Shown here: one piece after another, positions 7,991 to 44,237 of the stretch | How the letters are laid out: each line of letters starts with the position of its first letter | Position numbering within the stretch: the first letter of the stretch is position 1 | DNA from: Phycisphaerae bacterium | GTDB taxonomy: Bacteria > Planctomycetota > Phycisphaerae > Sedimentisphaerales > Anaerobacaceae | Direction: 5' to 3' | DNA: 64,000 bases | NCBI GenBank assembly: GCA_016782865.1 | Contig: JADHXR010000006.1 | Span: 1 to 64,000 of the forward strand | Translations under genes and position numbers: made by a program | Notes under the pieces: model-generated | What the model saw: the letters and a program-made list of their open reading frames with translations, nothing else | Told to the model about the DNA's origin: nothing | Databases searched by the model: none

Positions 7991-8012
7991 AGGACATACT
8001 CCTGTATAATAA

Positions 8013-8045
8013 GCCGAGGCTTTCCTGGTACTCCGCAGCCTCGGC
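8013..8045 (-). terminator. Hairpin between flavoprotein and ankyrin fusion genes
   Basis: A perfect 9-bp stem (GCCGAGGCT / AGCCTCGGC) follows the flavoprotein stop on the minus strand. The run after it is TTATTATA, not a pure U tract, so termination is plausible but may be partial. Confidence 0.45.
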
Positions 8046-8088
8046 ACAAACATGCTTGATTGCATTGCTTTCGCAAGTTTGCTTGTCA

Positions 8089-8661
8089 CTAATTTATCTT
8101 CTTGAGCAGCCAGGCCATGTTCCGGCCCAATATCTCCATTGTTTCCAGGCCTTCGCTGTCCTGCTCGACCTCGCCGGGGGTTCTTCCGATCCCTACGTTC
8201 CAGTAAAAGGAGCCCGGCACGATCATCTGACTGATCAGGAAGAAGTGGTTGATAGTATCGAAAACATGAATGGCACCGGCTCTGCGCGCCGCGACAACCG
8301 CCGCTCCGGGTTTTCGCCCGAGCATATCCGAATTGGCCCTTGCGACAAAGCCCGCACGATCGATCAATGCCTTCATTTCCGTGGTGACATCGGCGAAATA
8401 GGTAGGCGAACCCAAAATTATTCCGTCGGCCTCCACCATCTTCTCGATGCATTCATTCAGGATGTCGTTGTCAACGACACACCTTTTGTCCTTGTTCTCA
8501 TAGCACTTGCCGCATGCGGTGCAACCTCTGATCTTCCTGCCGGCTAATTGGAACAATTCCGTTTCTATGCCTTCGGCTTCGAGTTCGGCGAAGACCTTTC
8601 GAATCAATATGGCCGTATTGCCGTCCTTTCTGGCGCTTCCGTTAAAAGCTACTACCTTCAT
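8089..8661 (-). CDS. Flavodoxin-fold NAD(P)H-dependent FMN reductase / iron-sulfur flavoprotein
   Basis: 190-residue cytoplasmic protein. The N-terminal [10 protein letters not shown] is the FMN-phosphate loop of the NADPH-dependent FMN reductase family. GCTACGKC followed by a fourth Cys (KRC) is the compact cysteine motif of iron-sulfur flavoproteins or their iron-free relatives. [10 protein letters not shown] is the flavin-ring loop. Length fits the family (about 180-200). A clean AGGAG precedes the ATG at 8661. It is last of a three-gene minus-strand cluster with an Asp/Glu racemase (52 bp upstream) and a nitrilase-superfamily amidase. Likely role is electron transfer or reduction of a small oxidised substrate; the specific substrate is unknown. 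Confidence 0.85.
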
Positions 8662-29575: not shown

Positions 29576-30595
29576 ATGATTGAGCTGTCTGAAAACATCT
29601 ACAATAGCCGGCTGACACGGAGCGAGCCCAAGTTCAAGCTCTGGCGCTCGGCGGGATTGCTCCTGACGTACAAGTGCAACTGCGCCTGTGAGTTCTGCTA
29701 CTACAACTGCGACATTGAGAAGGGGGGGCTGATGTCCGTCGAGACCGCGATCAATGCCTGGCATTCGGTGAGGGCCCTCGCAGGCGAGACCGCAAGGATA
29801 CACATCACCGGCGGTGAGGCCTTTCTATATTGGGACCGTTTGCAACAGATCCTCGAAGAGGCCCAACGCGAAAAGCTCGGCAAAGTCGATTTGATAGAGA
29901 CAAACGGCTTCTGGGCTTCGAATGAAAGAATCGCCCGACGGCGGCTGAAAAGACTCGACGAACTCGGGATGCATCGGTTCAAGGTCAGCACCGACCCGTT
30001 TCATCAGGAGTACGTTGACGCAGAATTGGTGCGCCGATTGGCCGCGACGGCCACCGATGTTCTTGGGCCCGACCGCGTGCAAATCCGCTGGCAAAAGTAC
30101 CTCGACAATCCCACCGAAATGAAGGACCTCTCGTCCGCTGAGCGTAAAGAGCGGTATATCAGTACTGTTAACGACTATCGGTGCCGCTTCACCGGCCGAG
30201 CAGCGGGAAAACTGGCGCGACTTCTCGCGGCACAACCGATAGAGAGTTTCACTGGGGCCAACTGCAAATCGGATCTTCTCGGCGCCAAGGGCGTGCATAT
30301 CGACCCGTTCGGCAACGTCTTTAGCGGCACGTGCAGCGGCATCATTCTCGGCAACGTGAGCGAGACGCCGCTTGAGGACATCTGGAAACAGTTCGACCCC
30401 GCGCACGACGACTTTATCAACCGGCTGTTCAATTCGGGCCCCTCGGGCCTGCTCGACGAAGCCGCAAAACAGGGCTATGAAAGACAAGAGGTCTACGCGA
30501 GCAAATGCCATCTCTGCACCGGCATCCGGCAGTTCCTCTTCAATAACGGCCTCTGTGGACCGACAATAGGCCCCGTGGAGTGTTACGCTGATTAG
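29576..30595 (+). CDS. Radical SAM protein
   Basis: 339 residues. [17 protein letters not shown] contains the Cx3Cx2C cluster motif (about residues 35-42) that binds the SAM-coordinated [4Fe-4S]. [11 protein letters not shown] is the GGE motif for SAM binding. [10 protein letters not shown] and [12 protein letters not shown] are further barrel strands. A C-terminal segment with [16 protein letters not shown] and later [12 protein letters not shown] resembles a short SPASM/twitch domain that could hold an extra cluster. It lies 54 bp after mnmG. No precursor peptide is seen nearby. Product unknown. Confidence 0.85.
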
Positions 30596-30603
30596 CGCCT
30601 TAG

Positions 30604-30647
30604 CAAAACAACCGGGGCCTATGCCGAGTGAATCAGCATAGGCCCCG
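30604..30647 (-). terminator. Terminator of CBM9/fibronectin-like gene
   Basis: On the minus strand CGGGGCCTATGC / GCATAGGCCCCG (12 bp, perfect) followed by GTTGTTTTG. It sits about 65 bp after the stop at 30713 and is nearly identical, with compensating changes, to the terminator of the paralogous gene at 46678. Confidence 0.75.
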
Positions 30648-30712
30648 AACTGGTGCAAATCTATCTTCTCAGCAGCGCGGTTACTTGCTGCTTCAATCAG
30701 CTTCCAAAGAAC

Positions 30713-32872
30713 TTACCTAACCAGCCGAATGTCGTCAAAATACATCGTGCCAGTACTGCCGGCCGCCGGGCCGTTTTTCGTGCCGATGCCGATGGTAATT
30801 GAATTGACATTAGCGAGATTCACGCCCGCAAACGCCTGCAGGTCGATGACCCACTGTCTCCATCCGGTAATGTTCGTTGCCGCAGGATCATCATGATAGA
30901 CAATCGACGTACCATTGAGGGCGACAAACATCCGATCGGGAGCGTTCGCCGATGCGCCCCTGTGCCACAGGATGAGCTTCGTGACGCCTTCGGTGGTCCA
31001 GTCTTTCGGCCAGAGAAGCGTCAAAGTCGCCTCGGAGGTCTTGCCGGCGTTGTCGTAGCGATAAACAAGCGACTGGATGCCGCCGTGAACGATACCCTGC
31101 TCGGCATAGGGCGGCAGATCGTTGCCCACCAGTGCGCCGTTTGTCGTGGTTCCAAAGCCGTCGATCCATTTATCGAATATCCTGTTGCTCGCGGCATCAG
31201 GCGGGTCAATATCGTTGTACGACTCGAAATCGTCCACGGCAATGAAATCGGCCGTCGTAAAGCTCCAGAGAAGACCCTTGACCGTTCCGGTCGGATATAC
31301 CTCATCCACGCGCCAGGCGTAACCGCTATCCCGGGCAAGTCCTCCGGGATCATAGCTCTCGGCGCCAAGCGCCCTGGGACCTACGTACTCAGGTGAGGCC
31401 GTCGTGGCGCTCTTGACCGCATCGGCATCGGTCCCGAAGTACAGCTCGTGCGAGGCGGCATTGTCCGCTGCTGTCCAGCCAAGCGTTGCTATCATCTGAA
31501 CATCCGCCGCGCCGTTGGCCGGTTGCGGATTGCCCACCGCGCCGGGTGTAGTGAAACTCCAGACTTCCCCTTTGTGCGTGTTTGGGGGATCGAATTCATC
31601 GACCCGCCAGTAATAGACCTTCTCTGCCTCAAGCGAACCGGGGTCGAAGGTCGCAGCGCCCTGCGGTACTCCCGTGACGGCATCATTTACCTCGTCGAAA
31701 CCTGTGCCGATAAAGACGGTGTGCAATTTGGCACCGTACCCTCCCTTCCAACTGAAGGTTGCATCCAGGTCCACAAATTCGGCGCCGTCGGCCGGGTCGG
31801 GATTGGAGGCGGTATAGGGCAGTATAGAGAAGCTCCAGACGTTACCCTTCCAGGGACTTGCTGCATTGGCGTCGTTGACCTCGTCGACTCGCCAGTAGTA
31901 GGTCGTTCCCGGAATCAGACCGCCCGGAATAGGAAAACCGGGAAAGCCGACAATAAACATGTCCGAGGCCTGCCGGTTGCCTACGAATGTGTCGGCGGCG
32001 CCGTTGTTCACATCGTCGAAATTATCGCCTATGTACACATCGTGCGATACCGCCCATTGTCCCGGCTTCCAGGAAAGCGTCGCCCATGTCAGCTCAAGCT
32101 GGTCGCCGTCTGCCGGATCCGGACGCCGAGCGAGCGGGTTGCCGCCACTGATTGCAACGTCGGAGAAAGTAATATGCCCAAATCCCAGACTCTGGTCATG
32201 AGCTTCTCGGCTGGTCCAGGTCATCTGGATTTCCCGGTCACCGTTATCGGTGTCGTCAAGAACGGGGTGGAAGCCGACGGTACTGCCTACTGAAAAGTCC
32301 AGTGAAAGCATTTGTCCGTATTCGATAGAGGCTTCGCAGATGTATCCCTCAGGAGTTAGGGAGGAGGCTACCTTGAGGTAATCAATCTGGCTCTGACCAC
32401 CACTGTCCATATTGCACCAGTTCCATGTCTGTTCCTTGAAATCAAAACCGTACTGGTAATGTTCATCATGTGGTGGAACGGCGTTTAGCGTAGAGAAAAA
32501 CACTTCTACAGCGTCGGCATTCCAGATAGTGCCGCCGGTTTTATTCTGGGATAACTTGTCGTCTTTCACAATCACTGCCATGTAGATGTTCTCGTCATCC
32601 CAGAGCAGATAGAATTCTCCGCCCAAGTCGTCAACGTTCTCCCAACTTGTCTGTCCAGTATACAATTGCGCTTCCACGTCAAGTATCGCCGGGGTCATAG
32701 CTGAAAGATTCCAGTCGCTCAGATCCCCGTCAATCTCGGGAGTGCCCCTGAAAACGTCTATCACCAGTGGCTCTCCGGTCTTTGGGTGTACTGCAGGTGG
32801 GTCCTGCGCAATCGCCAGACTCACGCTGAGCAAAGTAATAATCCCCATGAAAAAACATTTCTTAGCTAACAT
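30713..32872 (-). CDS. Secreted CBM9-like / fibronectin-like repeat protein
   Basis: 719 residues from ATG 32872 (GGAGGAAC upstream, signal peptide MLAKKCFFMGIITLLSVSLAIA). Residues about 25-235 are a CBM9/DOMON-like sugar-binding domain: GTPEIDGDLSDWN, FYLLWDDENIYMAVIVKDD, WNADAVEVFF. Three planctomycete-type fibronectin-like units follow (about 240-530), each with an LSWKPG or LGWTAADNAASHELYFGTD strand and YYWRVDE. The last 185 residues (DDFESYNDIDPPD to TMYFDDIRLVR) form a jelly-roll-like domain that is about identical in layout to the C-terminus of the 44572 gene. Probably an extracellular carbohydrate-binding scaffold. No catalytic domain is visible. Confidence 0.82.
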   Translation of the reverse strand: MLAKKCFFMGIITLLSVSLAIAQDPPAVHPKTGEPLVIDVFRGTPEIDGDLSDWNLSAMTPAILDVEAQLYTGQTSWENVDDLGGEFYLLWDDENIYMAVIVKDDKLSQNKTGGTIWNADAVEVFFSTLNAVPPHDEHYQYGFDFKEQTWNWCNMDSGGQSQIDYLKVASSLTPEGYICEASIEYGQMLSLDFSVGSTVGFHPVLDDTDNGDREIQMTWTSREAHDQSLGFGHITFSDVAISGGNPLARRPDPADGDQLELTWATLSWKPGQWAVSHDVYIGDNFDDVNNGAADTFVGNRQASDMFIVGFPGFPIPGGLIPGTTYYWRVDEVNDANAASPWKGNVWSFSILPYTASNPDPADGAEFVDLDATFSWKGGYGAKLHTVFIGTGFDEVNDAVTGVPQGAATFDPGSLEAEKVYYWRVDEFDPPNTHKGEVWSFTTPGAVGNPQPANGAADVQMIATLGWTAADNAASHELYFGTDADAVKSATTASPEYVGPRALGAESYDPGGLARDSGYAWRVDEVYPTGTVKGLLWSFTTADFIAVDDFESYNDIDPPDAASNRIFDKWIDGFGTTTNGALVGNDLPPYAEQGIVHGGIQSLVYRYDNAGKTSEATLTLLWPKDWTTEGVTKLILWHRGASANAPDRMFVALNGTSIVYHDDPAATNITGWRQWVIDLQAFAGVNLANVNSITIGIGTKNGPAAGSTGTMYFDDIRLVR

Positions 32873-32950
32873 TTTGTTCCTCCTTCTAAAAAGAGTTTTA
32901 GTGTAGCAATGAATCATCGAGAAGAAACTCGGAGCTGATGTCCATGCTGG

Positions 32951-33010
32951 TCAGGGGGGACGAGCCACCGGGCTCGGCCATGAGGTGGTTTGAGAATCAG
33001 GCACGCTCAT
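32951..33010 (-). CDS. Possible 19-residue leader peptide
   Basis: ATG at 33010 is preceded by AGGAGG at 7 bases spacing and encodes MSVPDSQTTSWPSPVARPP before a stop. It lies 78 bp upstream of the CBM9-like gene. A translated leader is possible, but nothing else supports it. Confidence 0.2.
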   Translation of the reverse strand: MSVPDSQTTSWPSPVARPP

Positions 33011-33045
33011 TACACGCCTCCTATCCATCTAACAGAAATCATCCG

Positions 33046-33165
33046 GGATTTCTCATATACACTTCACTGAACCACTCCTACAAACTTCAAGTCTCACAAT
33101 ACCGTAATCTCATTTCAATTTCAAGATAATTCCAGCAGATTCAGCATATCGTGCCGGAAAAGCCG
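33046..33165. repeat. 120-bp dispersed repeat, copy 1
   Basis: Aligns without gaps to 47836-47955 at about 90% (12 differences by eye). On the minus strand both copies end a frame with RLFR..MLNLLELS-stop. It occupies much of the 32873-33262 intergenic gap, which otherwise holds the possible leader peptide and the BlaI operator. Confidence 0.75.
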
Positions 33166-33191
33166 AAAAAAAATTATTTTTCCATTTTTTG

Positions 33192-33249
33192 TTGGCATCT
33201 TGTACAAGTGTACGATATTATGGTTGTACATATGTACAATACACTTGTA
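33192..33249 (+). promoter_or_regulatory. Promoter with nested BlaI-type operator dyads
   Basis: Promoter-like TTGGCA (33192-33197), 18 bp, TATTAT (33216-33221). Over it lie CTTGTACAAG (33199-33208, perfect), TTGTACATATGTACAA (33224-33239, perfect 16 bp), and the mutually inverted pair TACAAGTGTA (33203-33212) and TACACTTGTA (33240-33249). TACA/TGTA-containing dyads are the known BlaI/MecI binding pattern, so the downstream repressor probably controls itself here. Confidence 0.75.
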
Positions 33250-33262
33250 AAAGGAGATTGAT

Positions 33263-33637
33263 ATGACGGTGGAGAATCTACCGGCCTTGAGCCCTTCCGA
33301 AACCGAGATACTGAGATTAGTCTGGCAGCTCGACAAAGCGACCGTGCAGGAGGTTTGCGAGAAACTGCCTGCCGAAAGGAAGATAACCTATGCCACCGTT
33401 CAGACCCTGCTGCGCCGGTTGGAAAAGAAGGGCTACCTGAAACACACAGTCAATGGCAAGGCCCACGTTTTTTCGGCTGCGGTCGAGAGGGAACACGTCG
33501 TAAAGAGATCAGTCGGTGATTTTCTGGACCGGCTATTCGGCGGCGATCCTATTCCACTCATGCAGTACTTAGCCGAGCACGGCACGATCAGCGCCGACGA
33601 TATCGAGAACCTCAAACGGCTCACGAGTAAACAATGA
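33263..33637 (+). CDS. BlaI/MecI/CopY-family transcriptional repressor
   Basis: 124 residues. The winged helix is clear: LSPSETEILRLVWQLDKATVQEVCEKL, then ITYATVQTLLRRLEKKGYLKH (recognition helix and wing), followed by the dimerisation helices (VKRSVGDFLDRLFGG). Such repressors are cleaved or released after a partner BlaR1/MecR1 membrane protease senses a signal. The partner lies 200 bp downstream. AAGGAGATTGAT precedes the ATG. Operator dyads overlap its promoter. Confidence 0.93.
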   Translation: MTVENLPALSPSETEILRLVWQLDKATVQEVCEKLPAERKITYATVQTLLRRLEKKGYLKHTVNGKAHVFSAAVEREHVVKRSVGDFLDRLFGGDPIPLMQYLAEHGTISADDIENLKRLTSKQ

Positions 33638-33740
33638 ATAGAACATTGCCACAGAGATCACAGAGAGAACGGAGAACAATTAACCACAGATGCCGCCCTG
33701 AGCGAAGTCGAAGGATTTCGCAGATTAACGCAGATAAGGA

Positions 33741-33805
33741 TTAGCCACGAATGAACACGAATTGGCACGGATAACAGCAATGAATTGGAGAAAATTCGTG
33801 GCTAA
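33741..33805. repeat. Inverted repeat between blaI- and blaR1-like genes
   Basis: TTAGCCACGAAT and ATTCGTGGCTAA form a 12-bp perfect inverted repeat around sequence of the CACGAATGAACACGAATT type, a common dispersed filler. A related GCAGATTAACGCAGATAAGG piece precedes it. Confidence 0.6.
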
Positions 33806-33835
33806 GAACCAATAGTTTTTTGCGGAGAGATAGCA

Positions 33836-36800
33836 ATGGAAACTTACCTGACCCAAATCACAAATTATCTGCTGATGCAAAGCTGGCAGATAGCAGTCCT
33901 GGTGGTCGTAATAGCTGCTGCAACCTTCGCGCTGAGAAACAGAAGCGCACACGTCCGCTACCTGCTCTGGCTTATCGTCCTGGCCAAATGCCTGGTTCCG
34001 CCGTTGCTCGAAGTTCCGGTTGCCGTGTTGCCCGAAAGAGTGCCGGTCGCTGCTGCTTTCACCATCCCTTTGCCTGCCGCAGTCGAGACGATGCCGGAAA
34101 CAACAGGGCCACTGGAGGTCGCGCCGATAGTTGCGCCTGTAGTACCCTCTCGACCGCAACTAAGCCCCCGACAATGGATCGTGATCGGGTGGTTGGCTGG
34201 CGTGTTGGCGTTTGCTTGCATCGCGGCTGTCAAGGCCGGCCGCACCGTGCGATGGCTGCGCCGGGACCGCAGACCGCTCTCTCACGACGTGCAGACCGGC
34301 GTCAACGATCTGCTGTCCCCGCTCGGCCTGCGAAGGCTGCCCAGAATGTGGCTGCTTGAGGGGATCGGCCAACCCTTCGTCTGGGGAGCAGTGCGGGGAG
34401 ACATCTACCTGCCCGCAAGCTTCGTTCGGATTCCGGATGATGGACATCGCAGGCACGTTCTGGGTCATGAACTCGGTCACGTGATGCGTTTCGATGCTGC
34501 GGTCAATCTCGTGCAGATAATCGCCCAATCCGTTTTCTGGTTCCATCCTCTTGTATGGTGGGCGAACAGGAGAATCCGCGCCGAGCGCGAGAAATGCTGC
34601 GATGAAATGGCAATCGCCCGTCTGAACGCCCAAGCCAAAGATTACACCAGAGCAATCGTTGAGACGCTCGTTACCGAATATGAATCGACCCGGCCAGTTC
34701 CATCGTTGGCTATAGCGGGTCCGGTGAGGAACATTGAGGAAAGGATCAAGATTATGTTGAAGCCAGGAAAGAAATTCTACAAACACGCAAGCGTGCCCGT
34801 TCTATTGATTGTCGGTTTGATAGCTCTGTTGGCTGTTCCAACAGCTTTAGTCCTGACCGCCAGAGCTGGCACAGCACCCGGCTTCGGCAATCCCACAAAC
34901 CTTGGGCCGTCTGTCAACAGTTCAGCTCACGAGTATGATCCGAGCATTTCCGCCGATGAATTGGAACTCTACTTCAACTCATATCGGCCCGGGAGTTTTG
35001 GCGAGGCCGACATCTGGATGACAACGAGGAAGACGAAGGCCGACCCTTGGGGCAACCCCGTGAATCTTGGACTCACGGTCAACAGCCCGGCTCGCGAGCT
35101 TGCCCCAAGCATATCGGCCGACGGACTGTCGCTCTACTTCAGTTCGGACCGGTCAGGAGGGTACGGTGTTCAAGATATCTGGGTGACAACGCGGGAAACG
35201 AAGAGTGCTCCTTGGGGCGAGCCGGTGAATCTCGGCCCCACGGTCAACAGCGTGGCTCGCGAGCACGCCCCAAGCATTTCCACTGACGGCCTGGAGCTTT
35301 ACTTCTCTGGGCTCTGGGAATTCCCTGAATCATCACGACCCGGAGGTTCGGGTAAAGCCGACATCTGGGTGACAGCGAGGAAGACGAAACGTGACCCTTG
35401 GGGCACACCGGTTAACCTCGGCCCAGCAGTCAATAGTACTACCTATGACGAATCACCTTCCATATCGGGAGATGGTCTGTCGCTCTACTTCTACTCCCAT
35501 CGATCATGGGGTTCTGGTAAATCCGATATTTGGGTGACGAAGCGCAAAAGCACGAGCGACCCTTGGGGTGCACCGGTGAACCTTGGTCCAACCGTCAATA
35601 GTGTGAGCATGGGAGGCAATCCCGATATTTCCAGGGATGGTTCTACCCTATACTTTGCATCGAGGCGGCCCGGTGGTTTGGGCGGATCCGACCTGTGGCA
35701 GTTGTCCTTGGGGAAACATGGGGCGAAAGAAAATTCTGCCCCTGAAGATGAGAAAAGACAACCGACAAAGTCACTGCAGCAGGCTGCTGCTGATGGTGAT
35801 CTTGAGCAGGTCAAGTTGCACATTTCAAGCGGTGCCGATGTCAACGCCAAGGACCAAAGGGGCAGGGCTGCCGTGCATCGTGCGGCTTATGCCGGCCACA
35901 TAGAGGTCGTGAGACTGCTTATCGAGCATGGCGCGGACGTCAACGTGGAGGACAAGCTGAAGAGAACACCGCTGGAACACGCGGCAGTTGCCAGCCGCAC
36001 GAAGGTGGTTAAGCTGCTCATCGAAGAAGGGGCTAATCCGAACGCCCGCAATGAGGATCGGGCAACACCACTCCATGTTGCTGCGAGCTCAACAGACAAA
36101 GATACTGTCAGGTTACTCATAGATGAGGGCGCTGACGTCACTCTGAAGGATGCTGCCGGGAAAACACCGTTGCACGCCGCGATGATGAGTGCAAATCCGG
36201 GCAGGAGGGAAATTGTAGACATCATCGTGGCCACAGGCAAAGTCCCATCCACCATTCATTTGGCGGCGTATATGGGGGATCTGGCCAAAGTCAAAACCTT
36301 CATCGAAGAAGGTGTAGCTGTGAATGAGAAGGGAGTTGGTGCTGTGACGGCCTTACACTGCGCCGCTGCCGGAGGCCGGAAAGAAGTGGCGGAGCTGCTA
36401 CTGGCCCATGGCGCCGATGTGAACGCACGAGAAACCGATGGTATGACCCCACTGCAGTCCGCTGTTTACTGTTCGGATGATAAAGAAACCATCAAGCTGC
36501 TTATCGCCAATGGATCAGATGTCAACGCGACTGCCCACGTCGAGGGTGAAACGGGAATGTCAGTACTGGGGCTGCGGCTTGAAAGATGCGTCAGCCAGCC
36601 TATAGAACTTGCTGATGCAGGGGGCAAAGAGATGAATGCACGAGTCAAATCGCTTTGGAACAGTGAGATAACACGGCTCCTGACGTCCAAAGGGGCCAGG
36701 TTTGGTGACGGCGACGAATTTTGGCTGTCCATCGCAGAGAAAATGGACATACCGGAAATTAAGGAGTTGGCCCCCACCAACAGCGATGATGATAACAAGG

Positions 36801-37906
36801 AACAACCCAAAGACTCAGCCACTTTGCACCAGGCAGCCGCTGATGGTGACCTTGAGCAGATCAAACTGCACATTTCAAAAGGCGCCGATGTCAATACCAG
36901 GGACGAGAATGCCAGGACACCTCTGATCATTGCTGCTGATGAAGGTCAGAAGAACGTTGTCGAGCTGCTACTTTCAAATGGTGCGGAAGTAGAGGCACGT
37001 GATGACACCGGTGCCACGGCTCTGCACCACGCAGCGATAGACGGATATCTCGACATAGTTGAGGTGCTGCTGGAAGACGGGGCCGATGTCAATGCATGGA
37101 AAGGCGACCGTAGTTGGGCCGCAATACATGCAGCAATACAACTTGGTTACTATGACATTGTGAAATTGCTCATCGATAAAGGAGCCGATATTAACACCAA
37201 ATGCAATATCAGTGGCACACCTTTGGAGACTGTAACACATTGCGGGACCGAACAGCATCAGCGGATAGCTCAGTTACTTTTGGAAAGAGGGGCTGTGTCG
37301 CGCTCACGGATACACACGGCCAGCTTCATTGGCGACGTTAATTCAGTGAAGGAATTAATCGAGGCCGGAACAGATGTCAATAAAAAGGGCTGCGGGGGAC
37401 GCATGCCCCTGCACTGCGCGGCGGTCTCGGGCCAAAATGCGGTTATGGAATTGCTACTGGCTAGGGGCGCAAATGTAAACGCAAGAGGTGGGGGGAATCT
37501 AACGCCCCTGCACGAAGCGAGTGGGAAAGATCAACCTGAGGCGGTGGCCCTGTTAATCGCCAAAGGTGCGGATCTCAATGCAAGAGACTACGATGGCGAT
37601 ACGCCTTTACACCTTGCTTCACGCGGATGGGGTAATGTTCATTTCCCTGGAAGTTTAGCAGTGGCGAGACTGTTACTGAATAGAGGAGCAGAGATAGATG
37701 CTCGCAACAAATCGGGGGAGACACCCTTGCATCGAGCGGCCGAGAGCGGTTTCAAGGACGTTGTCCAAGAGCTTCTGGAGAAAGGTGCCGATGTGAATAT
37801 CCAGGACAGCCAGGGGCTGACGGCCCTGGGATTGGCAAAACAAGAAGATCATACGAAAGTCATCGAGCTGTTGCGCAAGCACGGGGCGAAAGAAAAGAAT
37901 TTATAA
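33836..37906 (+). CDS. BlaR1/M56-type sensor protease with PD40 propeller and ankyrin arrays
   Basis: 1356 residues. The N-terminal third is a BlaR1/MecR1 M56 metalloprotease: three membrane helices (about 17-35, 42-60, 112-131), the zinc motif HELGH at 211-215 with the downstream EREKCCDE, then a fourth helix at about 319-342. Where BlaR1 has a penicillin-binding sensor, this protein has five PD40-like blades (about 350-640; LGPTVNS...PSISADGLSLYF...DIWVTTR repeated). These are followed by two ankyrin blocks (about 650-830 and 845-1350, some 18 repeats such as TPLHLASRG and GADVNARETDG). By family logic the outer part senses and the protease inactivates the BlaI repressor encoded upstream. 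The ligand is unknown and is unlikely to be a beta-lactam. Confidence 0.88.
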   Translation: METYLTQITNYLLMQSWQIAVLVVVIAAATFALRNRSAHVRYLLWLIVLAKCLVPPLLEVPVAVLPERVPVAAAFTIPLPAAVETMPETTGPLEVAPIVAPVVPSRPQLSPRQWIVIGWLAGVLAFACIAAVKAGRTVRWLRRDRRPLSHDVQTGVNDLLSPLGLRRLPRMWLLEGIGQPFVWGAVRGDIYLPASFVRIPDDGHRRHVLGHELGHVMRFDAAVNLVQIIAQSVFWFHPLVWWANRRIRAEREKCCDEMAIARLNAQAKDYTRAIVETLVTEYESTRPVPSLAIAGPVRNIEERIKIMLKPGKKFYKHASVPVLLIVGLIALLAVPTALVLTARAGTAPGFGNPTNLGPSVNSSAHEYDPSISADELELYFNSYRPGSFGEADIWMTTRKTKADPWGNPVNLGLTVNSPARELAPSISADGLSLYFSSDRSGGYGVQDIWVTTRETKSAPWGEPVNLGPTVNSVAREHAPSISTDGLELYFSGLWEFPESSRPGGSGKADIWVTARKTKRDPWGTPVNLGPAVNSTTYDESPSISGDGLSLYFYSHRSWGSGKSDIWVTKRKSTSDPWGAPVNLGPTVNSVSMGGNPDISRDGSTLYFASRRPGGLGGSDLWQLSLGKHGAKENSAPEDEKRQPTKSLQQAAADGDLEQVKLHISSGADVNAKDQRGRAAVHRAAYAGHIEVVRLLIEHGADVNVEDKLKRTPLEHAAVASRTKVVKLLIEEGANPNARNEDRATPLHVAASSTDKDTVRLLIDEGADVTLKDAAGKTPLHAAMMSANPGRREIVDIIVATGKVPSTIHLAAYMGDLAKVKTFIEEGVAVNEKGVGAVTALHCAAAGGRKEVAELLLAHGADVNARETDGMTPLQSAVYCSDDKETIKLLIANGSDVNATAHVEGETGMSVLGLRLERCVSQPIELADAGGKEMNARVKSLWNSEITRLLTSKGARFGDGDEFWLSIAEKMDIPEIKELAPTNSDDDNKEQPKDSATLHQAAADGDLEQIKLHISKGADVNTRDENARTPLIIAADEGQKNVVELLLSNGAEVEARDDTGATALHHAAIDGYLDIVEVLLEDGADVNAWKGDRSWAAIHAAIQLGYYDIVKLLIDKGADINTKCNISGTPLETVTHCGTEQHQRIAQLLLERGAVSRSRIHTASFIGDVNSVKELIEAGTDVNKKGCGGRMPLHCAAVSGQNAVMELLLARGANVNARGGGNLTPLHEASGKDQPEAVALLIAKGADLNARDYDGDTPLHLASRGWGNVHFPGSLAVARLLLNRGAEIDARNKSGETPLHRAAESGFKDVVQELLEKGADVNIQDSQGLTALGLAKQEDHTKVIELLRKHGAKEKNL

Positions 37907-37970
37907 TGTCGAATTGAGAATGTAGAATTTGGATTGTCAATTCTCAATTCTTCATCCCAAATTCTCAATT

Positions 37971-39080
37971 CTAATTCTTTGGCATCGCCGTGGCTTCGAT
38001 TTCGAATAGTAGGTCGGGGCGGCAGACGTCGCAGATGACCGTTATCCAGGGCCAGTTGAGGGCTTTCCTCGTGGCTTCGAATTCCTTTTCGACGTCGGTT
38101 GTTTTGCAGTAGGCGATGACCTGCACGAGATCTTTCTCGTCGGCGTCCATTTCGGCCAGGACGGCCCGAACGTTTTCTATCGTTGCGTCTATCTGGCCTG
38201 CAGCGTCGTCGATATGGGTGGTGACTCCGTCGGCGTTGATGGAAGCGGTTCCAGAGACCCATACTGCGTCGCCGGCGGGCATGGCGCTGCGAGCGGCGCG
38301 TGAGAATGCCGAGCCGTAATCGAACGCGCTGTGCTGTTTTCCCGTCGTCAGAAGGTACTGCGTGCAGTCGGTCGGTTCGAGGACAGCCATAATGTCCATC
38401 GCGCAGTGGCCCCCGTCGGCCGGTCCGAGTCCGATACCGGTGCTGGCGGGCATTGTTTCGCGCGTCCCTTTTCCGAGAAGGCCCCACTCGACGAAGAAGT
38501 TTGTCCTGACGGCGTTAAAGTCATCGTACCAATCGAGGATATCCTTGAGCCACATCCAGGTGCGCGGCACGGAAAGAAAATCGGCGCCCAATTGCCGCAG
38601 CGCCGCTTCAACTTTTTTCATCATGGCTTTGGCCTGCCCGGGTGCCTGGCTGTCATGCAGATCGGATATGCCTGAGAGTGTGAGATATGCCCGGCCGGGC
38701 ATGCGCAGAATCCGCCCGACAAGGTCTCCTTTGAGGCCGATCACTTCCGGCTTGTTTTTGCTGCTGACCGCGTGGACCTGCACTCCGGCTATAGGGCCCG
38801 AGAGTCCTTCTTTGCCCACTAACAAGGCCGGGGCGACTCCGTCGTCCAGATCGCCGTAGGCCGCCGAGCGCGCCTGGCAGAGAGTTTCCATCGCCGGCTC
38901 GGTGGAAAAGAGCCGTTCCTGGAGGATGTGGGCCTTTTGGGACCGGAGAACGTCGCTGATACCGGCAAATATGTCCTGCGCCTGGTCCTGCAAGGGGGCT
39001 TTCGGATCCGGCGCCGCCGAAATATAGAATTCCGTTGCTGAAGCTGATTCGACACTGCGTATGTCAAGGTGTACAGTCAT
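37971..39080 (-). CDS. RidA/chorismatase-like fold protein
   Basis: 369 residues. The C-terminal 130 are RidA/YjgF-like (DAVWVSGTASINADG, IDDAAGQIDATIENVRAVLAE, DLVQVIAYCKTTD). The larger N-terminal part fits the FkbO/Hyg5-type chorismatase arrangement, in which two RidA-like folds are joined (RAYLTLSGISDLHD). ATG 39080 is chosen since GGGACGAGAA lies just before it; ATG 39092 has nothing upstream. A chorismate hydrolase is possible, but the active-site residues were not checked, so RidA-family protein is the safe label. It stands alone between the BlaR1-like gene and the PD40/kinase operon. Confidence 0.72.
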   Translation of the reverse strand: MTVHLDIRSVESASATEFYISAAPDPKAPLQDQAQDIFAGISDVLRSQKAHILQERLFSTEPAMETLCQARSAAYGDLDDGVAPALLVGKEGLSGPIAGVQVHAVSSKNKPEVIGLKGDLVGRILRMPGRAYLTLSGISDLHDSQAPGQAKAMMKKVEAALRQLGADFLSVPRTWMWLKDILDWYDDFNAVRTNFFVEWGLLGKGTRETMPASTGIGLGPADGGHCAMDIMAVLEPTDCTQYLLTTGKQHSAFDYGSAFSRAARSAMPAGDAVWVSGTASINADGVTTHIDDAAGQIDATIENVRAVLAEMDADEKDLVQVIAYCKTTDVEKEFEATRKALNWPWITVICDVCRPDLLFEIEATAMPKN

Positions 39081-39337
39081 TTCTCGTCCCATTGGTCACT
39101 TGCACAGTCAGAAATTCTTACATTCGGGGTTGCATTCTAAGTGCCGTGAGCAAGAAAGACAAGCTAAATTCCGCTCCTGACGGAAAAAGCCTTCATACCG
39201 TGAAACGAGTTGCTGTCGCCGGGAGAAAAATATTAAAAAAAGGACAAAACCGTAACAAAACGGTAACGTCCAAACTGCATAATTGCTCCTGTTGAAGTAA
39301 CCGTTTTTTTGTTAACCTATTTGAAAGGAGCAAGATT

Positions 39338-41338
39338 ATGGAAAGGTTCAGGAACATCACAATCATCTTTTTGTTGGCTGTTGTCCTGCCCGCCTCAGGC
39401 GCTAAAGCCAAGTCGGCAAGTGTCCTGCTGCAGGAAGGACTCTTCGCCGAGCAGATGGAGGGCGATCTTGATGCGGCAATCAAGGTTTACGAGCGCGTCC
39501 TCCAAGAGTTTCCCAAGAGCCGTGCGCAGGCGGCAGAGGCGCTGCTCCACATCGGTCTATGCTACGAGAAGCTCGGCAAACAGGAGGCGCAGAAGGCCTA
39601 CCGACGCCTCATCAAGGAGTATGCCGACCAGCATGAGCCCGTGGCCCAGGCCCGCGCACGACTTGCCGCTATTAATCCCTTGGACGACACGCAGCAGGCA
39701 GGCCTCGTTATGCGGGAACTAGACATCAGGAACCTATACAAAATCGGGAATTATGGAAGTTGGGGCGCTTGTCTCAGCCGGGATGGTCGCAAACTCGTGT
39801 ACTGCAAACAAGAGAACATCTTCACCAACCTTATATCGAATCTTGTCGTGCGCAATCTTGTCTCAGGCGAAGAAATCCAAATAACAGACTATGAGACTGG
39901 GGAAGTACTTCTCCCTGTATTCTCCCCGGATGGAAATGAGATTGTCTATGCATATACGACGAAGCCAACACCTGACGGCTATCCGCTTCATGTCGTATCG
40001 GTCGAGACAGGCCAGGATCGCACGTTGGGCCTTTCTGGATGGCCTGTCGATTGGTCAAGAGATGGTCGGTTCATTCTTATCAAAGGCCCCATTAATCCTC
40101 GTGCCAAGCACAAAATCTTGTCAATCAATAAAGAGGGGGCTGAATTATTGGATTTGCCGGTGCCAGCAGGGAAGAACATGCGATTTTCTCCGGACGGGAG
40201 ATACCTGAGCTATGCGTGTGAGGGAAATCTATATCTGTTCGATATCGGCGACCAAAAGGAGATCCAGATTACGGAAGAATCCCACGGGGATGTTCATCCA
40301 ATCTGGTCTTCCGATGGACAGGGACTCTTATTTCGTAGTCAGCGACGCTTTGATCCCATAAAGGACCTCTGTTATGTCTCCATCGTTGAGGGCAAGGCAC
40401 GCGGTGAAGTACGAGTGCTTAAACCCGATTTCAGTGGCGACTGGGGCTTTTCGCATAGTGAAAACGGACGACTGCTTTACCAGCGGGACATGCAGGAGAA
40501 ATGCATCTATACCGTCACAATTGATCCTCAAATGGGCCAGCCAATCGAAGACCCTCAGAAACTCGCGGCCGGAATGCAGCCCGAATGGTCACCCGACGGT
40601 AAGCAGATCAGCTATGTTGCGGAAGATGCCCTTCGTATTATGTCCGCAGATGGCAGCCATGATAGGGAGATCATGAAGATTCATGGGCACTACACGGGCA
40701 CATACGCCTGGACAAACGACAATCACATCTATATGAGTGAGACCATCGATGGTGCTCGGGGCATTTATGCAATCTCCCTGTCTGCCAAAGAGAGACGAAT
40801 GGTTCTTAAAGGGAAAGGCGAGCATTTAACTTACTCCCGTAGAACGAAGCAACTTGCATTTGTGGAGAAAAAACAGATATTTACCATGGATTTGGATGGA
40901 GGCAATCTCCGTCAAGTCACGTCAGACAACAAGATAAAATACAATCCTGCCTTCTCACCTGATGGCAAACAGATCGCGTTTGAATCTGGACCTCCAGGTG
41001 GAGGTGGCATAAGAACGCTCACTGTCGTCTCAGTCGAAGACGGAACGGCTAGGGAGCTGTTTCAGGGTAGTACGCCCAAAGACCGGTTTCTTCAGTCATC
41101 CTGGTCTCCTGACGGGACTAAAATTGCGTGGTATTCCCGGATTGGCATAATACGAATCGGTCAAGTATCAGGTGGAAAATCTAGCATGTTCAAGGTCAAA
41201 GCTGACCGACCATACATGCCGCACATGCCGCACATGCCGCGTTGGTCCCCCGATGGCACGAAGATGTTATTCTGGAATCCCGTTAACTATTTCCAGCTGA
41301 TGATCATGGATAACTTTCTGCCGGAGCTTAATGATTAG
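39338..41338 (+). CDS. Secreted TPR / PD40 (TolB-like) propeller protein
   Basis: 666 residues with a signal peptide (about 1-23) and AAAGGAG before the ATG. Residues about 28-125 are TPR-like (GDLDAAIKVYERVLQEFP, EALLHIGLCYEKLG). About 130-660 form a TolB-type propeller with repeated PD40 units: FSPDGNEIVYAY, WSRDGRFILIKG, FSPDGRYLSYAC, WSPDGKQISYVA, FSPDGKQIAFES and WSPDGTKIAWYS. A tandem ATGCCGCAC micro-repeat (41215-41241) encodes MPHMPHMP near the end. The histidine kinase gene starts 12 bp after its stop, so this periplasmic protein may be the kinase's sensory partner. Its paralogue-like blades also occur in the BlaR1-like protein. Confidence 0.83.
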   Translation: MERFRNITIIFLLAVVLPASGAKAKSASVLLQEGLFAEQMEGDLDAAIKVYERVLQEFPKSRAQAAEALLHIGLCYEKLGKQEAQKAYRRLIKEYADQHEPVAQARARLAAINPLDDTQQAGLVMRELDIRNLYKIGNYGSWGACLSRDGRKLVYCKQENIFTNLISNLVVRNLVSGEEIQITDYETGEVLLPVFSPDGNEIVYAYTTKPTPDGYPLHVVSVETGQDRTLGLSGWPVDWSRDGRFILIKGPINPRAKHKILSINKEGAELLDLPVPAGKNMRFSPDGRYLSYACEGNLYLFDIGDQKEIQITEESHGDVHPIWSSDGQGLLFRSQRRFDPIKDLCYVSIVEGKARGEVRVLKPDFSGDWGFSHSENGRLLYQRDMQEKCIYTVTIDPQMGQPIEDPQKLAAGMQPEWSPDGKQISYVAEDALRIMSADGSHDREIMKIHGHYTGTYAWTNDNHIYMSETIDGARGIYAISLSAKERRMVLKGKGEHLTYSRRTKQLAFVEKKQIFTMDLDGGNLRQVTSDNKIKYNPAFSPDGKQIAFESGPPGGGGIRTLTVVSVEDGTARELFQGSTPKDRFLQSSWSPDGTKIAWYSRIGIIRIGQVSGGKSSMFKVKADRPYMPHMPHMPRWSPDGTKMLFWNPVNYFQLMIMDNFLPELND

Positions 41339-41350
41339 GCAATAGAATTC

Positions 41351-43432
41351 ATGCCGAGAAAAGGATTTAATAGTAGCGGTTATGGTCAACTGCGGTGGGT
41401 AATATTATTGCTTGCGATAGCGGTGATATTGCCCACCGTGTGCCTGCTCTGGTTTATGGGCCAGGCGGTCAAGAACGTGCAACTGGCAGCCAGGCAAAAG
41501 CTGATCACGCTTTACGAGGAGAAGCTTGACAAGGCTTCGCAAGAGAAGAATCAGTCATGGTCCCAACAGTTCGAGCAACTTGATAAGCGGGTGGACCGGA
41601 ACCTTCCGTCGGAACTCTTCGATGATTTGTTCAAGGCCCAGTACCATTCTGTCATCGTCTACGATGAGGACGGCAGGCGAATCTACCCTTTGATTTCGGC
41701 TGATGTTAGCGTTCCGGTCGATCCGGCCGAGGAATTCCGCAACGCGTGGCGGCTCGAATTCGCCGAGCAAAAGTTGGCCGAGGCTATCGAGCTGTATGAA
41801 GAAGAAACGCAGTCGAACAATACCTATATTAGTCTTTCAGCGCTAATCGGCAAGGCCAGATGTCTGGCAAAACTCGGCAACTCGGACCAGGCTGTGGAGG
41901 TGTACAAGAAAGTCGCCTTCAGTCCCGAAGAGGTAACCTGCGACACGGCGACGCTGATGCTTATCGCCAATACACGCCTGCTGCTTGCTGAATTATTAAA
42001 GCCAACCCTGAAAAAACCTGAGACCCTTGAGACTCTTACTTATCCCGCGTTCCGGGAAGAACTCTCGAAGTTATTACAAATAATCGGAGGACAAAACGAA
42101 GCAGGAGCGGTTCTGCCTTTGGACCGGAGCATATTCCTTGCCCACAGATCCATCGAGCTTGCCGAGGCTGCTGACACGGTATATTGTGAAATGTATAGAG
42201 ACATGCCTATGGTGATGTATGACATAGATATGGAGCTGTTTATTGAGTTAGAATCTCTGAGGGGAGTGCTGAACGAGGGCGAGATTGCGCTTGCAGTGAT
42301 TGATCGTTTTCCAACGGCAGCGGAATTCCGGGATTGGCCCGCAGATCAGTTTGGGCAATTGCAATTGGACGAACAAACCTTCTGTTACGGAGCAAAGCAT
42401 GATGTCGGCGACAAAACCATACTGCTGCTGCAGCCCGATCAAATTCTTGGCGTGAATTATGAACACGATTTCAGGAACACCGGCGTGGCATATCGAGTAC
42501 TTGATAATTTTGGCCGGGTCGCCGGTGGACTTGAGGAATCCCGAGGCAGGCCTTTTCTTACGGCACGAATCGGCAAGTACTTTACCGACTGGCAGGTCGA
42601 GCTTTATTTTGAGGACGACGATATTTTTGAAGGAGCTGCGCAGAGACAGATTACGCTATATATCTGGGCCGGAGTGCTTGTTATTGTTTTGATCCTTGCG
42701 ACCGGCGGTTTTGCAGGCCAGGCGGTTAGCAGGCAGATAAAAGTTAACAGGCTCAAGAACGATTTTATCGCGACTGTCTCACATGAGCTGAAAACGCCGC
42801 TATCGTCGATGCGCGTGCTGGCCGATACGCTGCTGGAAGGAAATTACGAGGATGAAGAACAAGCGACAGAATACCTACAGTTGATCTGCAAAGAAAACAA
42901 ACGGCTCAGCGGACTGATTGATAACTTCCTTACCTTCTCGAGGATGGAGCGGAGCAAGCAGGCCTTCGATATGGTAAAAACCAGCCCGGTTGAAATCGCC
43001 CAAGCCGCCGCCGAGGCGGTTAAGACAAAATTCAACGGGGGCCAATGCGAGTTCCAGGTGCAAATCACAGAGAACCTGCCCGATGTCCTCGCCGACCAGA
43101 ATGCAATGGTAACGGTGCTTGTGAACCTGCTGGACAATGCGTATAAATATTCCGAAGACGGCAGGAAAGTTGAGTTGAGGGTTTTTGCCGGGGACGGTTC
43201 GGTTTGTTTTTGCGTTTGCGACAACGGTATCGGGATGTCACGCCGGGTCGCTAAGAAGATTTTTGAGAGATTTTACCAGGTTGACCGTAGCCTCTCGCGA
43301 GGAGCCGAAGGATGTGGATTGGGTCTGAGCATAGCGAAGTTTATCATCGACGCCCACAAAGGCTCGATTAGCATAGACAGCAGACCCGGCGAAGGGAGCA
43401 CGTTTACCGTAGAACTGCCGGCAGTGAAATAA
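41351..43432 (+). CDS. Membrane sensor histidine kinase
   Basis: 693 residues. Transmembrane helices at about 14-34 (WVILLLAIAVILPTVCLLWF) and 434-454 (LYIWAGVLVIVLILATGGF) enclose a roughly 400-residue extracytoplasmic region that includes a TPR-like stretch (about 130-230, KARCLAKLGNSDQAVEVYKK). The cytoplasmic part has HisKA with the phospho-accepting His in TVSHELKTPLSSM (about 477) and HATPase_c with N box LVNLLDNAYKYSE, G1 CDNGIGM and G2 GCGLGLSIAKF. It is encoded between a secreted propeller protein and an OmpR-type regulator and so forms one signalling unit with them. Confidence 0.92.
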   Translation: MPRKGFNSSGYGQLRWVILLLAIAVILPTVCLLWFMGQAVKNVQLAARQKLITLYEEKLDKASQEKNQSWSQQFEQLDKRVDRNLPSELFDDLFKAQYHSVIVYDEDGRRIYPLISADVSVPVDPAEEFRNAWRLEFAEQKLAEAIELYEEETQSNNTYISLSALIGKARCLAKLGNSDQAVEVYKKVAFSPEEVTCDTATLMLIANTRLLLAELLKPTLKKPETLETLTYPAFREELSKLLQIIGGQNEAGAVLPLDRSIFLAHRSIELAEAADTVYCEMYRDMPMVMYDIDMELFIELESLRGVLNEGEIALAVIDRFPTAAEFRDWPADQFGQLQLDEQTFCYGAKHDVGDKTILLLQPDQILGVNYEHDFRNTGVAYRVLDNFGRVAGGLEESRGRPFLTARIGKYFTDWQVELYFEDDDIFEGAAQRQITLYIWAGVLVIVLILATGGFAGQAVSRQIKVNRLKNDFIATVSHELKTPLSSMRVLADTLLEGNYEDEEQATEYLQLICKENKRLSGLIDNFLTFSRMERSKQAFDMVKTSPVEIAQAAAEAVKTKFNGGQCEFQVQITENLPDVLADQNAMVTVLVNLLDNAYKYSEDGRKVELRVFAGDGSVCFCVCDNGIGMSRRVAKKIFERFYQVDRSLSRGAEGCGLGLSIAKFIIDAHKGSISIDSRPGEGSTFTVELPAVK

Positions 43433-43464
43433 AAGCAAAAGTGTTGGTTCAGAATTAAAAAAGG

Positions 43465-43540
43465 TTCCAGGTTAAATAAGGTTCACGGTTCAACGGTTGT
43501 AGGAAGGCTTTTTCAACCAACCTTGAACCCTGAACCGTTT
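43465..43540. repeat. Inverted repeat between kinase and regulator
   Basis: GGTTCACGGTTCAACGGTTG and CAACC...CCTTGAACCCTGAACC form an imperfect foldback, a common intergenic repeat. It lies inside the kinase/regulator transcript. Confidence 0.45.
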
Positions 43541-43547
43541 TAGCGAA

Positions 43548-44237
43548 ATGGAAACGGTCTTAATAATTGAAGATGACGCGACGATGCTGCGGGGCCTCAA
43601 GGACAACTTCGAGTTCAAGGGCTACCGCGTGCTTACCGCCGCCGACGGCGAGGAAGGACTAAATGCTGCTCTCGGTGAGAAGCCTGACCTGATCGTTCTC
43701 GATATTATGCTGCCCAAGATAAACGGCTACGAAGTATGCAGACTGATCCGCGAGGAAGATCTTGATATGCCCATAATAATGCTGACCGCCAAAGGCGAGG
43801 AATCGGACATCGTGCTGGGTCTGAACCTCGGCGCCGATGATTATGTCACCAAGCCTTTCAGCATCAAGGAGCTTCTCGCCCGCACCACGGCGTTCCTGCG
43901 CCGAAGCCAGCAAACCGACGAGAACAGCTATGAGTTCGGCGATTATCGCCTGGACATCCCCGCCAGGAAGCTCACCCAAAAGGGCGATGAAATCAAGCTC
44001 TCGCCCAAAGAGTTCAGACTGATGGAACTGTTCCTCAAGAAGCCGAACAGGGCGCTGACCCGCGATGAGATACTAAACGCCGTCTGGGGCTACGATTGCT
44101 ACGTCGGCCCCCGCAGCATAGACCGTTTCGTCACCACGCTGCGAAACAAGATAGAACCCGACCCCCACAACCCAACCTTCATCCACACAATAAGAGAAAT
44201 CGGCTACAAATTCGAACCGCCTGAGCAGATTGCTTGA
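43548..44237 (+). CDS. OmpR/PhoB-family response regulator
   Basis: 229 residues. The receiver domain has the acidic pair EDD (8-10), phospho-acceptor D52 in LIVLDIMLP, the T/S position in IIMLTAKG, and K in DDYVTKPFS. The C-terminal winged helix is complete (LSPKEFRLMELFLKKPNRALTRDEIL, SIDRFVTTLRNKIEPDP, IHTIREIGYKF). It is cognate to the histidine kinase 115 bp upstream. Target genes are not evident from the window. Confidence 0.95.
   Translation: METVLIIEDDATMLRGLKDNFEFKGYRVLTAADGEEGLNAALGEKPDLIVLDIMLPKINGYEVCRLIREEDLDMPIIMLTAKGEESDIVLGLNLGADDYVTKPFSIKELLARTTAFLRRSQQTDENSYEFGDYRLDIPARKLTQKGDEIKLSPKEFRLMELFLKKPNRALTRDEILNAVWGYDCYVGPRSIDRFVTTLRNKIEPDPHNPTFIHTIREIGYKFEPPEQIA

Follow-up and report, generated by a model that had tools for sequence, protein, structure and literature searches.

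The DNA analysed here, a stretch of 64,000 nucleotides from a Phycisphaerae bacterium (the window; contig JADHXR010000006.1), carries on its plus strand a gene for a BlaI/MecI-family repressor followed by a gene for a membrane-bound peptidase that ends in a propeller and ankyrin repeats. The two belong to the BlaI–M56 pairs, and the protease to peptidase family M56; one such pair, BlaR1–BlaI, is known as an antibiotic-resistance switch. For the window pair we hold it fairly probable that it forms a proteolytic switch of the BlaR1 kind, which regulates its own two-gene operon and bears an exchangeable tail that binds a ligand outside the cytoplasm. The M56 gene and its product are laid out as follows (TM, transmembrane helix; pLDDT, predicted local distance difference test score).

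33836–37906, plus strand: M56 protease with propeller and ankyrin tail; ATG start, 1356 aa, no internal stops
33884–34753, plus strand: Peptidase_M56 region, residues 17–306 (Pfam PF05569, E 2e-37; score 129 bits, cut-off 31)
34004–34165, plus strand: long TM2–TM3 loop, about residues 57–110, by position the counterpart of BlaR1 EL1
34466–34480, plus strand: HELGH zinc-binding motif, residues 211–215; all 12 clade members share H211, E212 and H215
34589–34603, plus strand: ExxxD motif EKCCD, residues 252–256, aligned to E242xxxD of BlaR1 and invariant in 12 of 12
34685–34726, plus strand: loop S284–V297, aligned with the BlaR1 autocleavage loop (8exp); 10 invariant columns in alignment A3
34793–34870, plus strand: TM4 and ARA-G linker, about residues 320–345, the join of constant protease and variable tail
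34883–35704, plus strand: five PD40 repeats, residues 350–623, a predicted five-bladed propeller (local repeat models, AlphaFold2, fold comparison)
35774–36529, plus strand: ankyrin block 1, eight repeats, residues 647–898 (local repeat models, AlphaFold2)
36530–36823, plus strand: inter-ankyrin linker, residues 899–996; no repeat by the repeat models, low pLDDT at about 980–995
36824–37888, plus strand: ankyrin block 2, ten repeats, residues 997–1351 (local repeat models, AlphaFold2)

Searched against Pfam, the 1356-aa protein also matched PD40 (E 3.8e-31) and Ank_2 (E 3.6e-114), and repeat models built in this analysis counted five PD40 and 18 ankyrin repeats (8 + 10). A preliminary description, made from the sequence letters, had given five blades and about 18 ankyrin repeats in two blocks, which is exact. 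Its assignment of the membrane part to a BlaR1-type protease is likewise supported by the PF05569 match, the active-site residues and the fold. The residues named for the BlaR1 active site in the structure report (PMC9834060), H201, H205, D210, E242, D246, Y261 and R294, align with H211, H215, D220, E252, D256, Y270 and R303 of the window protein, all seven of them invariant across 12 aligned relatives. Among the best conserved stretches of the M56 relatives is the region aligned with the autocleavage loop. In an AlphaFold2 model of residues 1–635, computed from a 38-row alignment (mean pLDDT 86.7), residues 8–301 superimposed on BlaR1 8exs with Z 20.0 and a root-mean-square deviation of 5.2 over 256 aligned residues, and the TM2–TM3 loop was mostly disordered (pLDDT < 50 at residues 57–97). 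Judged by sequence and model, the protease looks active.

The protein nonetheless stands outside the BlaR1 beta-lactam receptors, because no penicillin-binding domain was found and its score lies far under the blaR1 cut-off: a transpeptidase or penicillin-binding family was not among the 14 Pfam families matching the protein at E ≤ 0.01, and NCBIfam blaR1_generic gave 88 bits against a cut-off of 400. The penicillin-binding sensor reported as missing in the preliminary description is thus indeed absent from these matches. Kinship of the M56 and BlaI parts with BlaR1 and BlaI is what an ordinary beta-lactam-responsive BlaR1 with an added tail would display, but the same two results speak against it. 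That the open reading frame joins two separate genes by an assembly error, a concern raised in the preliminary description, is refuted by L058, a locus of another genus whose 1415-aa protein has equal architecture, operator layout and convergent neighbour in a syntenic setting. We regard either explanation, receptor or artefact, as very improbable indeed.

Immediately upstream, where the preliminary description had placed a BlaI gene, lie the repressor gene and its control region.

33192–33221, plus strand: sigma-70-like promoter of the blaI–M56 operon, TTGGCA-18 nt-TATTAT, 10 of 12 matches, the best of eight regionally
33203–33212: operator 1, TACAAGTGTA, in the promoter spacer between −35 and −10
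33227–33236: operator 2, TACATATGTA, directly past −10
33240–33249: operator 3, TACACTTGTA, adjoining the ribosome-binding region of blaI
33263–33637, plus strand: BlaI/MecI-family repressor, 124 aa (PF03965, Penicillinase_R, E 1.1e-30)
33640–33815: blaI–M56 spacer with dispersed-repeat pieces, seven partial copies of which lie elsewhere in the genome (80–94% identical)

The pattern TACANNTGTA (TACAnnTGTA), which we take to be the BlaI/MecI operator consensus, matched three times in the 64-kb window, each time within 33203–33249, as against 0.28 expected matches; none of 100 shuffles reached three. Related loci share this operator layout, often with all three sites at the spacing seen here; at L058 two sites match exactly and a third nearly so. 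The repressor aligns without gaps to the solved MecI (1okr) and BlaI (1sd4), its Y102-L103 falling on Asn101-Phe102, the cut position of Staphylococcus aureus BlaI. BlaI adjoins the M56 gene for 55 of the 57 full M56 proteins in named genomes, a count that leaves out six partial M56 frames; L028 and L060 run off contig ends. The dispersed-repeat pieces widen the blaI–M56 gap of the window, which measures less than 40 nt in most relatives. A stable RNA fold is predicted over this spacer (z −3.2 on 33625–33840), and no Rfam family was found at 30000–40000. Divergent from blaI, a gene at 30713–32917 on the minus strand encodes a CBM9-like protein with a leader-like start, near which TACAnnTGTA was not found.

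The tail is modelled as a five-bladed propeller followed by two solenoids of paired helices. In the model of residues 1–635, most propeller blocks exceed pLDDT 90. VIA-align placed the propeller (about residues 350–634) nearest to the five-bladed propellers of GH43 and GH62 among solved folds (Z about 20–21), and the top Foldseek match was TolB; sequence identity to TolB and GH43/GH62 is about 7–18% in the listed rows, so the likeness is one of fold alone. A separate tail model gave the two solenoids (mean pLDDT 72.6); its propeller part was poor, since the alignment had two rows only, and was not used. The preliminary description had judged a protein or polysaccharide ligand plausible. This is still conjecture: the GH43/GH62 fold match fits a glycan ligand and proves nothing.

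Where does the tail lie? Identity to relatives with other tails drops at the TM4/ARA-G join. Of 16 standalone PD40 relatives, 14 start with a hydrophobic leader that passes directly into repeat one, and TM4 occupies exactly this leader position in all seven M56–PD40 fusions of a second kind (C112-type). Other M56 tails carry LamG, CBM9, thioredoxin-like and secretin domains. For S. aureus BlaR1, the structure report describes an N-out, C-out protein that signal peptidase cuts just past the last transmembrane helix (PMC9834060). Because of the leaders of the secreted PD40 relatives, the nature of the other tails and the BlaR1 precedent, the tail is likely extracytoplasmic; the AlphaFold2 model and the positively charged flanks of the transmembrane helices are compatible with this. 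The position outside the cytoplasm assumed in the preliminary description therefore stands as probable.

The evolution of the locus can be followed with the help of a neighbouring gene, which serves as a syntenic marker and is not a proposed part of the switch.

37971–39092, minus strand: convergent RidA/L-PSP-family gene, 373 aa (PF01042, E 3.2e-14)

A RidA-like gene 62–79% identical to this one lies downstream of M56 in six other genomes, and the seven syntenic loci carry six tail architectures: PD40 plus ankyrin (the window protein and L058), PD40 (L057), ankyrin (L145), ankyrin plus secretin (L184), CarboxypepD_reg plus AhpC/TSA (L061) and CarboxypepD_reg (L139). Residues 1–345 of the window protein are 58–64% identical to the five intact syntenic relatives; at L184 (4898–6831) the M56 frame is broken and was read as two frames that overlap. 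In relatives with a different tail, likeness stops at about residue 340–345, directly past TM4; where the tails agree, the window tail is 48% identical to that of L058 over about 1080 columns and 66% identical to that of L057 over the propeller. Evolution thus appears, from these sequences, to swap the sensor tail at one locus and to keep the switch, that is protease, repressor and operators.

Tails have also moved between distant M56 clades, as judged from a sequence comparison of 76 M56 proteins. L073 and L077 are 80% identical in the tail (247 columns) versus 48% towards the N-terminus; for L067 and L156 the figures are 75% (155 columns) and 26%. Four C112-type M56 proteins have propellers 53–60% identical to that of the window protein, compared with 25–30% for their N-terminal parts. 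The ankyrin label changes at least 12 times on a tree of 48 M56 domains, a tree of low resolution with several long branches. In a tree of 27 propellers, the sister of the propeller of one M56 protein, at L055, was that of a secreted standalone protein encoded in the window's genome, with a Shimodaira–Hasegawa-like approximate likelihood ratio test (SH-aLRT) support of 100.

Within its own genome the window pair is one of many: we found 13 BlaI and 13 M56 matches, forming adjacent pairs. Their tails comprise PD40 plus ankyrin (the window pair), PD40 plus LamG, ankyrin only (three), a helical repeat without Pfam match, CarboxypepD_reg plus LamG-like plus AhpC/TSA, CarboxypepD_reg (two), CarboxypepD_reg plus Secretin_N plus LRR, the tail at C77 (judged by eye alone), a short tail in a protein of 449 aa, and a frame ending at 122 aa. 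The last of these (L035, 2428–2796 of its locus on C231) is preceded by an intact BlaI and a promoter palindrome, and is either a broken copy or an orphan BlaI.

The survey of M56 tails that the preliminary description called for found propeller and ankyrin tails recurring across relatives. Of the 49 M56 proteins read at loci sampled within the window's taxonomic family, 16 have at least three ankyrin repeats, as do 16 of the 57 full M56 proteins, two overlapping sets; these are not population frequencies, since the loci of the 49-protein set were mostly picked by likeness to the window protein. The ankyrin tail as a one-protein oddity was accordingly rejected. Nor does the preliminary view that ankyrins outside the cytoplasm are unusual find support here, given these counts and a precedent: Bd3460 of Bdellovibrio is a characterised periplasmic ankyrin protein that binds a protein and inhibits endopeptidases (PMC4686830). 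Small (six repeats), standalone and not part of a switch, Bd3460 would share with the window ankyrins the periplasmic function proposed for them here. Relatives in named genomes come mostly from metagenome-assembled Phycisphaerae/Sedimentisphaerales genomes, and a few belong to Verrucomicrobia or other groups. One locus, L188, is titled Actinomycetes; this bin label may be wrong, since both its operator and its M56, with 54% identity to the query, fit the planctomycete group. Elsewhere in the window, 5300–8452 on the minus strand encodes a secreted ankyrin and right-handed beta-helix protein with a signal-peptide-like stretch at an internal MRGKLSLHTV, where, inside the listed open reading frame, the protein probably starts.

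Such variety might also arise if the envelope state were sensed mainly by the M56 part itself, through the TM2–TM3 loop and the transmembrane bundle, with the tails as near-neutral passengers that drift and are exchanged since little depends on them. Tails do change while M56 keeps 58–64% identity to the window's, and the short-tailed paralogue and the 122-aa frame would fit as well. We consider this improbable: long and intact, the tails belong to ligand-binding types, and the tail identities to L058 and L057 given above are hard to reconcile with neutrality.

The preliminary description also proposed looking for other genes with the same BlaI operator. This search, run over 12 genomes, found no separate target. 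A longer form of the operator, at up to one mismatch, gave 23 matches, 21 of them before blaI–M56 operons of this kind and two in coding sequence, compared with two matches for the reversed-pattern control. In the window's own genome, TGTACANNTGTACA at up to one mismatch occurs in eight places, as against seven for the reversed pattern; two of the eight are the window promoter and six lie inside open reading frames. The C112-type operator matched ten times in five genomes, mostly before its own kind of operon (G026 C10 and G027 C610 left aside). Among 42 M56 genes with a readable neighbour, 36 have no same-strand gene within 100 nt downstream. No separate blaZ-like or resistance-gene target was evident with the full operator in the 12 genomes, where weaker sites are possible. 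With no second target found, both a sensor and a product role of the tail are therefore possible.

As a sensor, the tail would act much like that of BlaR1. BlaI would repress its own two-gene operon by binding the three operators present in the promoter. The M56 protein would sit in the inner membrane, its zinc site in the cytoplasm and its tail outside, as homology, model and secreted tail relatives suggest. The propeller, the ankyrin arms or both might bind a periplasmic or cell-surface ligand, for which a glycan or a protein of the envelope is the likeliest choice. Following BlaR1, binding would move TM4 and the TM2–TM3 loop and clear the active site of the autocleavage loop, whereupon the freed protease would cut BlaI and derepression of the operon would yield more receptor. 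Comparison of the sequences shows that mature parts of secreted proteins have been joined behind TM4 many times in evolution, at the window locus among others, with protease, repressor and operators kept.

Several points weigh against this proposal. Sensing by the tail is an analogy drawn from BlaR1, and it is odd that a sensor should apparently lack a second target. An [AVG]xA motif of the signal-peptidase kind follows TM4 in 35 of 46 proteins, and the outer end of TM2 in 4 of 46, but composition shuffles average 28.8 of 46 after TM4 and reach 38, so that the motif alone is weak evidence; we dropped it as proof of shedding. On the M56 tree, moreover, the window protein stands with L067 and L078, whose tails differ from its own, rather than with L058, its twin in architecture. 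A grouping of the four PD40 carriers in one clade was not rejected on that tree (approximately unbiased test, p = 0.284), and the 27-propeller tree places the four carriers of the window's clade together (SH-aLRT 98); because they group in this way, the propeller was probably gained once in that clade.

A different role for the tail is that of cargo. The operon would then be a self-regulating expression and export cassette in which TM4 serves as an internal signal sequence and signal peptidase frees the propeller–ankyrin tail, the sole useful product. In keeping with this, 21 of the 23 full-operator matches lie at the operon's own promoter and two in coding sequence, a same-strand gene follows within 100 nt in 6 of 42 cases only, the relatives of the tail are secreted proteins, and BlaR1 of S. 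aureus is itself cut by signal peptidase just past its last transmembrane helix (PMC9834060). Yet the BlaR1 sensor is shed too and is a sensor all the same, and a relaxed operator could still govern other genes. As the [AVG]xA count after TM4 is little above composition, shedding of the window tail is only possible. We hold the cargo role to be unlikely. The close conservation of the protease and of its loop, together with the strong BlaR1 precedent, makes the tail more likely a sensor than a product.

The sensor role could be one element of a wider arrangement: an insulated repertoire of receptor circuits, each pair with its own operator and controlling only itself, each exchangeable tail both a sensor and a shed product, so that exchange of domains at fixed loci would diversify the recognition of glycans or neighbouring cells, in a way that loosely recalls an innate recognition repertoire. 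Inspection by eye hinted that each of the 13 paralogues has an operator of its own. A promoter-spacer palindrome test reached p ≤ 0.05 in 5 of the 12 with a promoter call (the 13th had none), one of the five passes, C31, resting on a probably wrong hexamer pair, and exact TACAnnTGTA sites are present at 3 of the 13 pairs. Since the test passes in so few, insulation of the circuits can at most be called possible, and the repertoire as a whole is a speculation we think unlikely to hold.

Among known systems, BlaR1–BlaI and MecR1–MecI of Staphylococcus (PDB 8exp–8ext, 1sd4, 1okr) share with the window pair the M56 fold, the active-site residues, the conserved autocleavage-loop region, an adjoining BlaI gene, palindromic operators over the promoter and a tail past the last transmembrane helix. 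They differ in that the window protein has a propeller and ankyrin tail in place of the penicillin-binding sensor, and its genome has 13 paralogous pairs with exchangeable tails and no separate target operator that we could find. Standalone secreted PD40 proteins of the planctomycete family (for example at L091 and L095) have the same five-repeat propeller, mostly about 50–56% identical to the window's, but bring their own N-terminal leader and lack protease and repressor. Five of them with leaders stand in tandem at L091 (1518–7987, contig C182 of the window's genome), and the genome has many more. The window also holds, at 39338–44237 on the plus strand, a gene for a TPR and PD40 protein, after which come genes for a histidine kinase with TPRs and for a response regulator, possibly a separate signalling unit. 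No paper on M56–ankyrin fusions was found in the literature searched, a limited collection in which some papers were judged by title or abstract start.

These findings suggest that the BlaR1 or M56 annotations of an environmental genome are better left out of any count of beta-lactam resistance. In planctomycetes, the BlaI–M56 switch appears to be a general chassis whose sensor has been replaced repeatedly. If this is true, it would show how a transmembrane proteolytic receptor accepts new inputs; the natural tail swaps would make the coupling of sensor and protease testable and would offer ready-made chimeras for biosensors.

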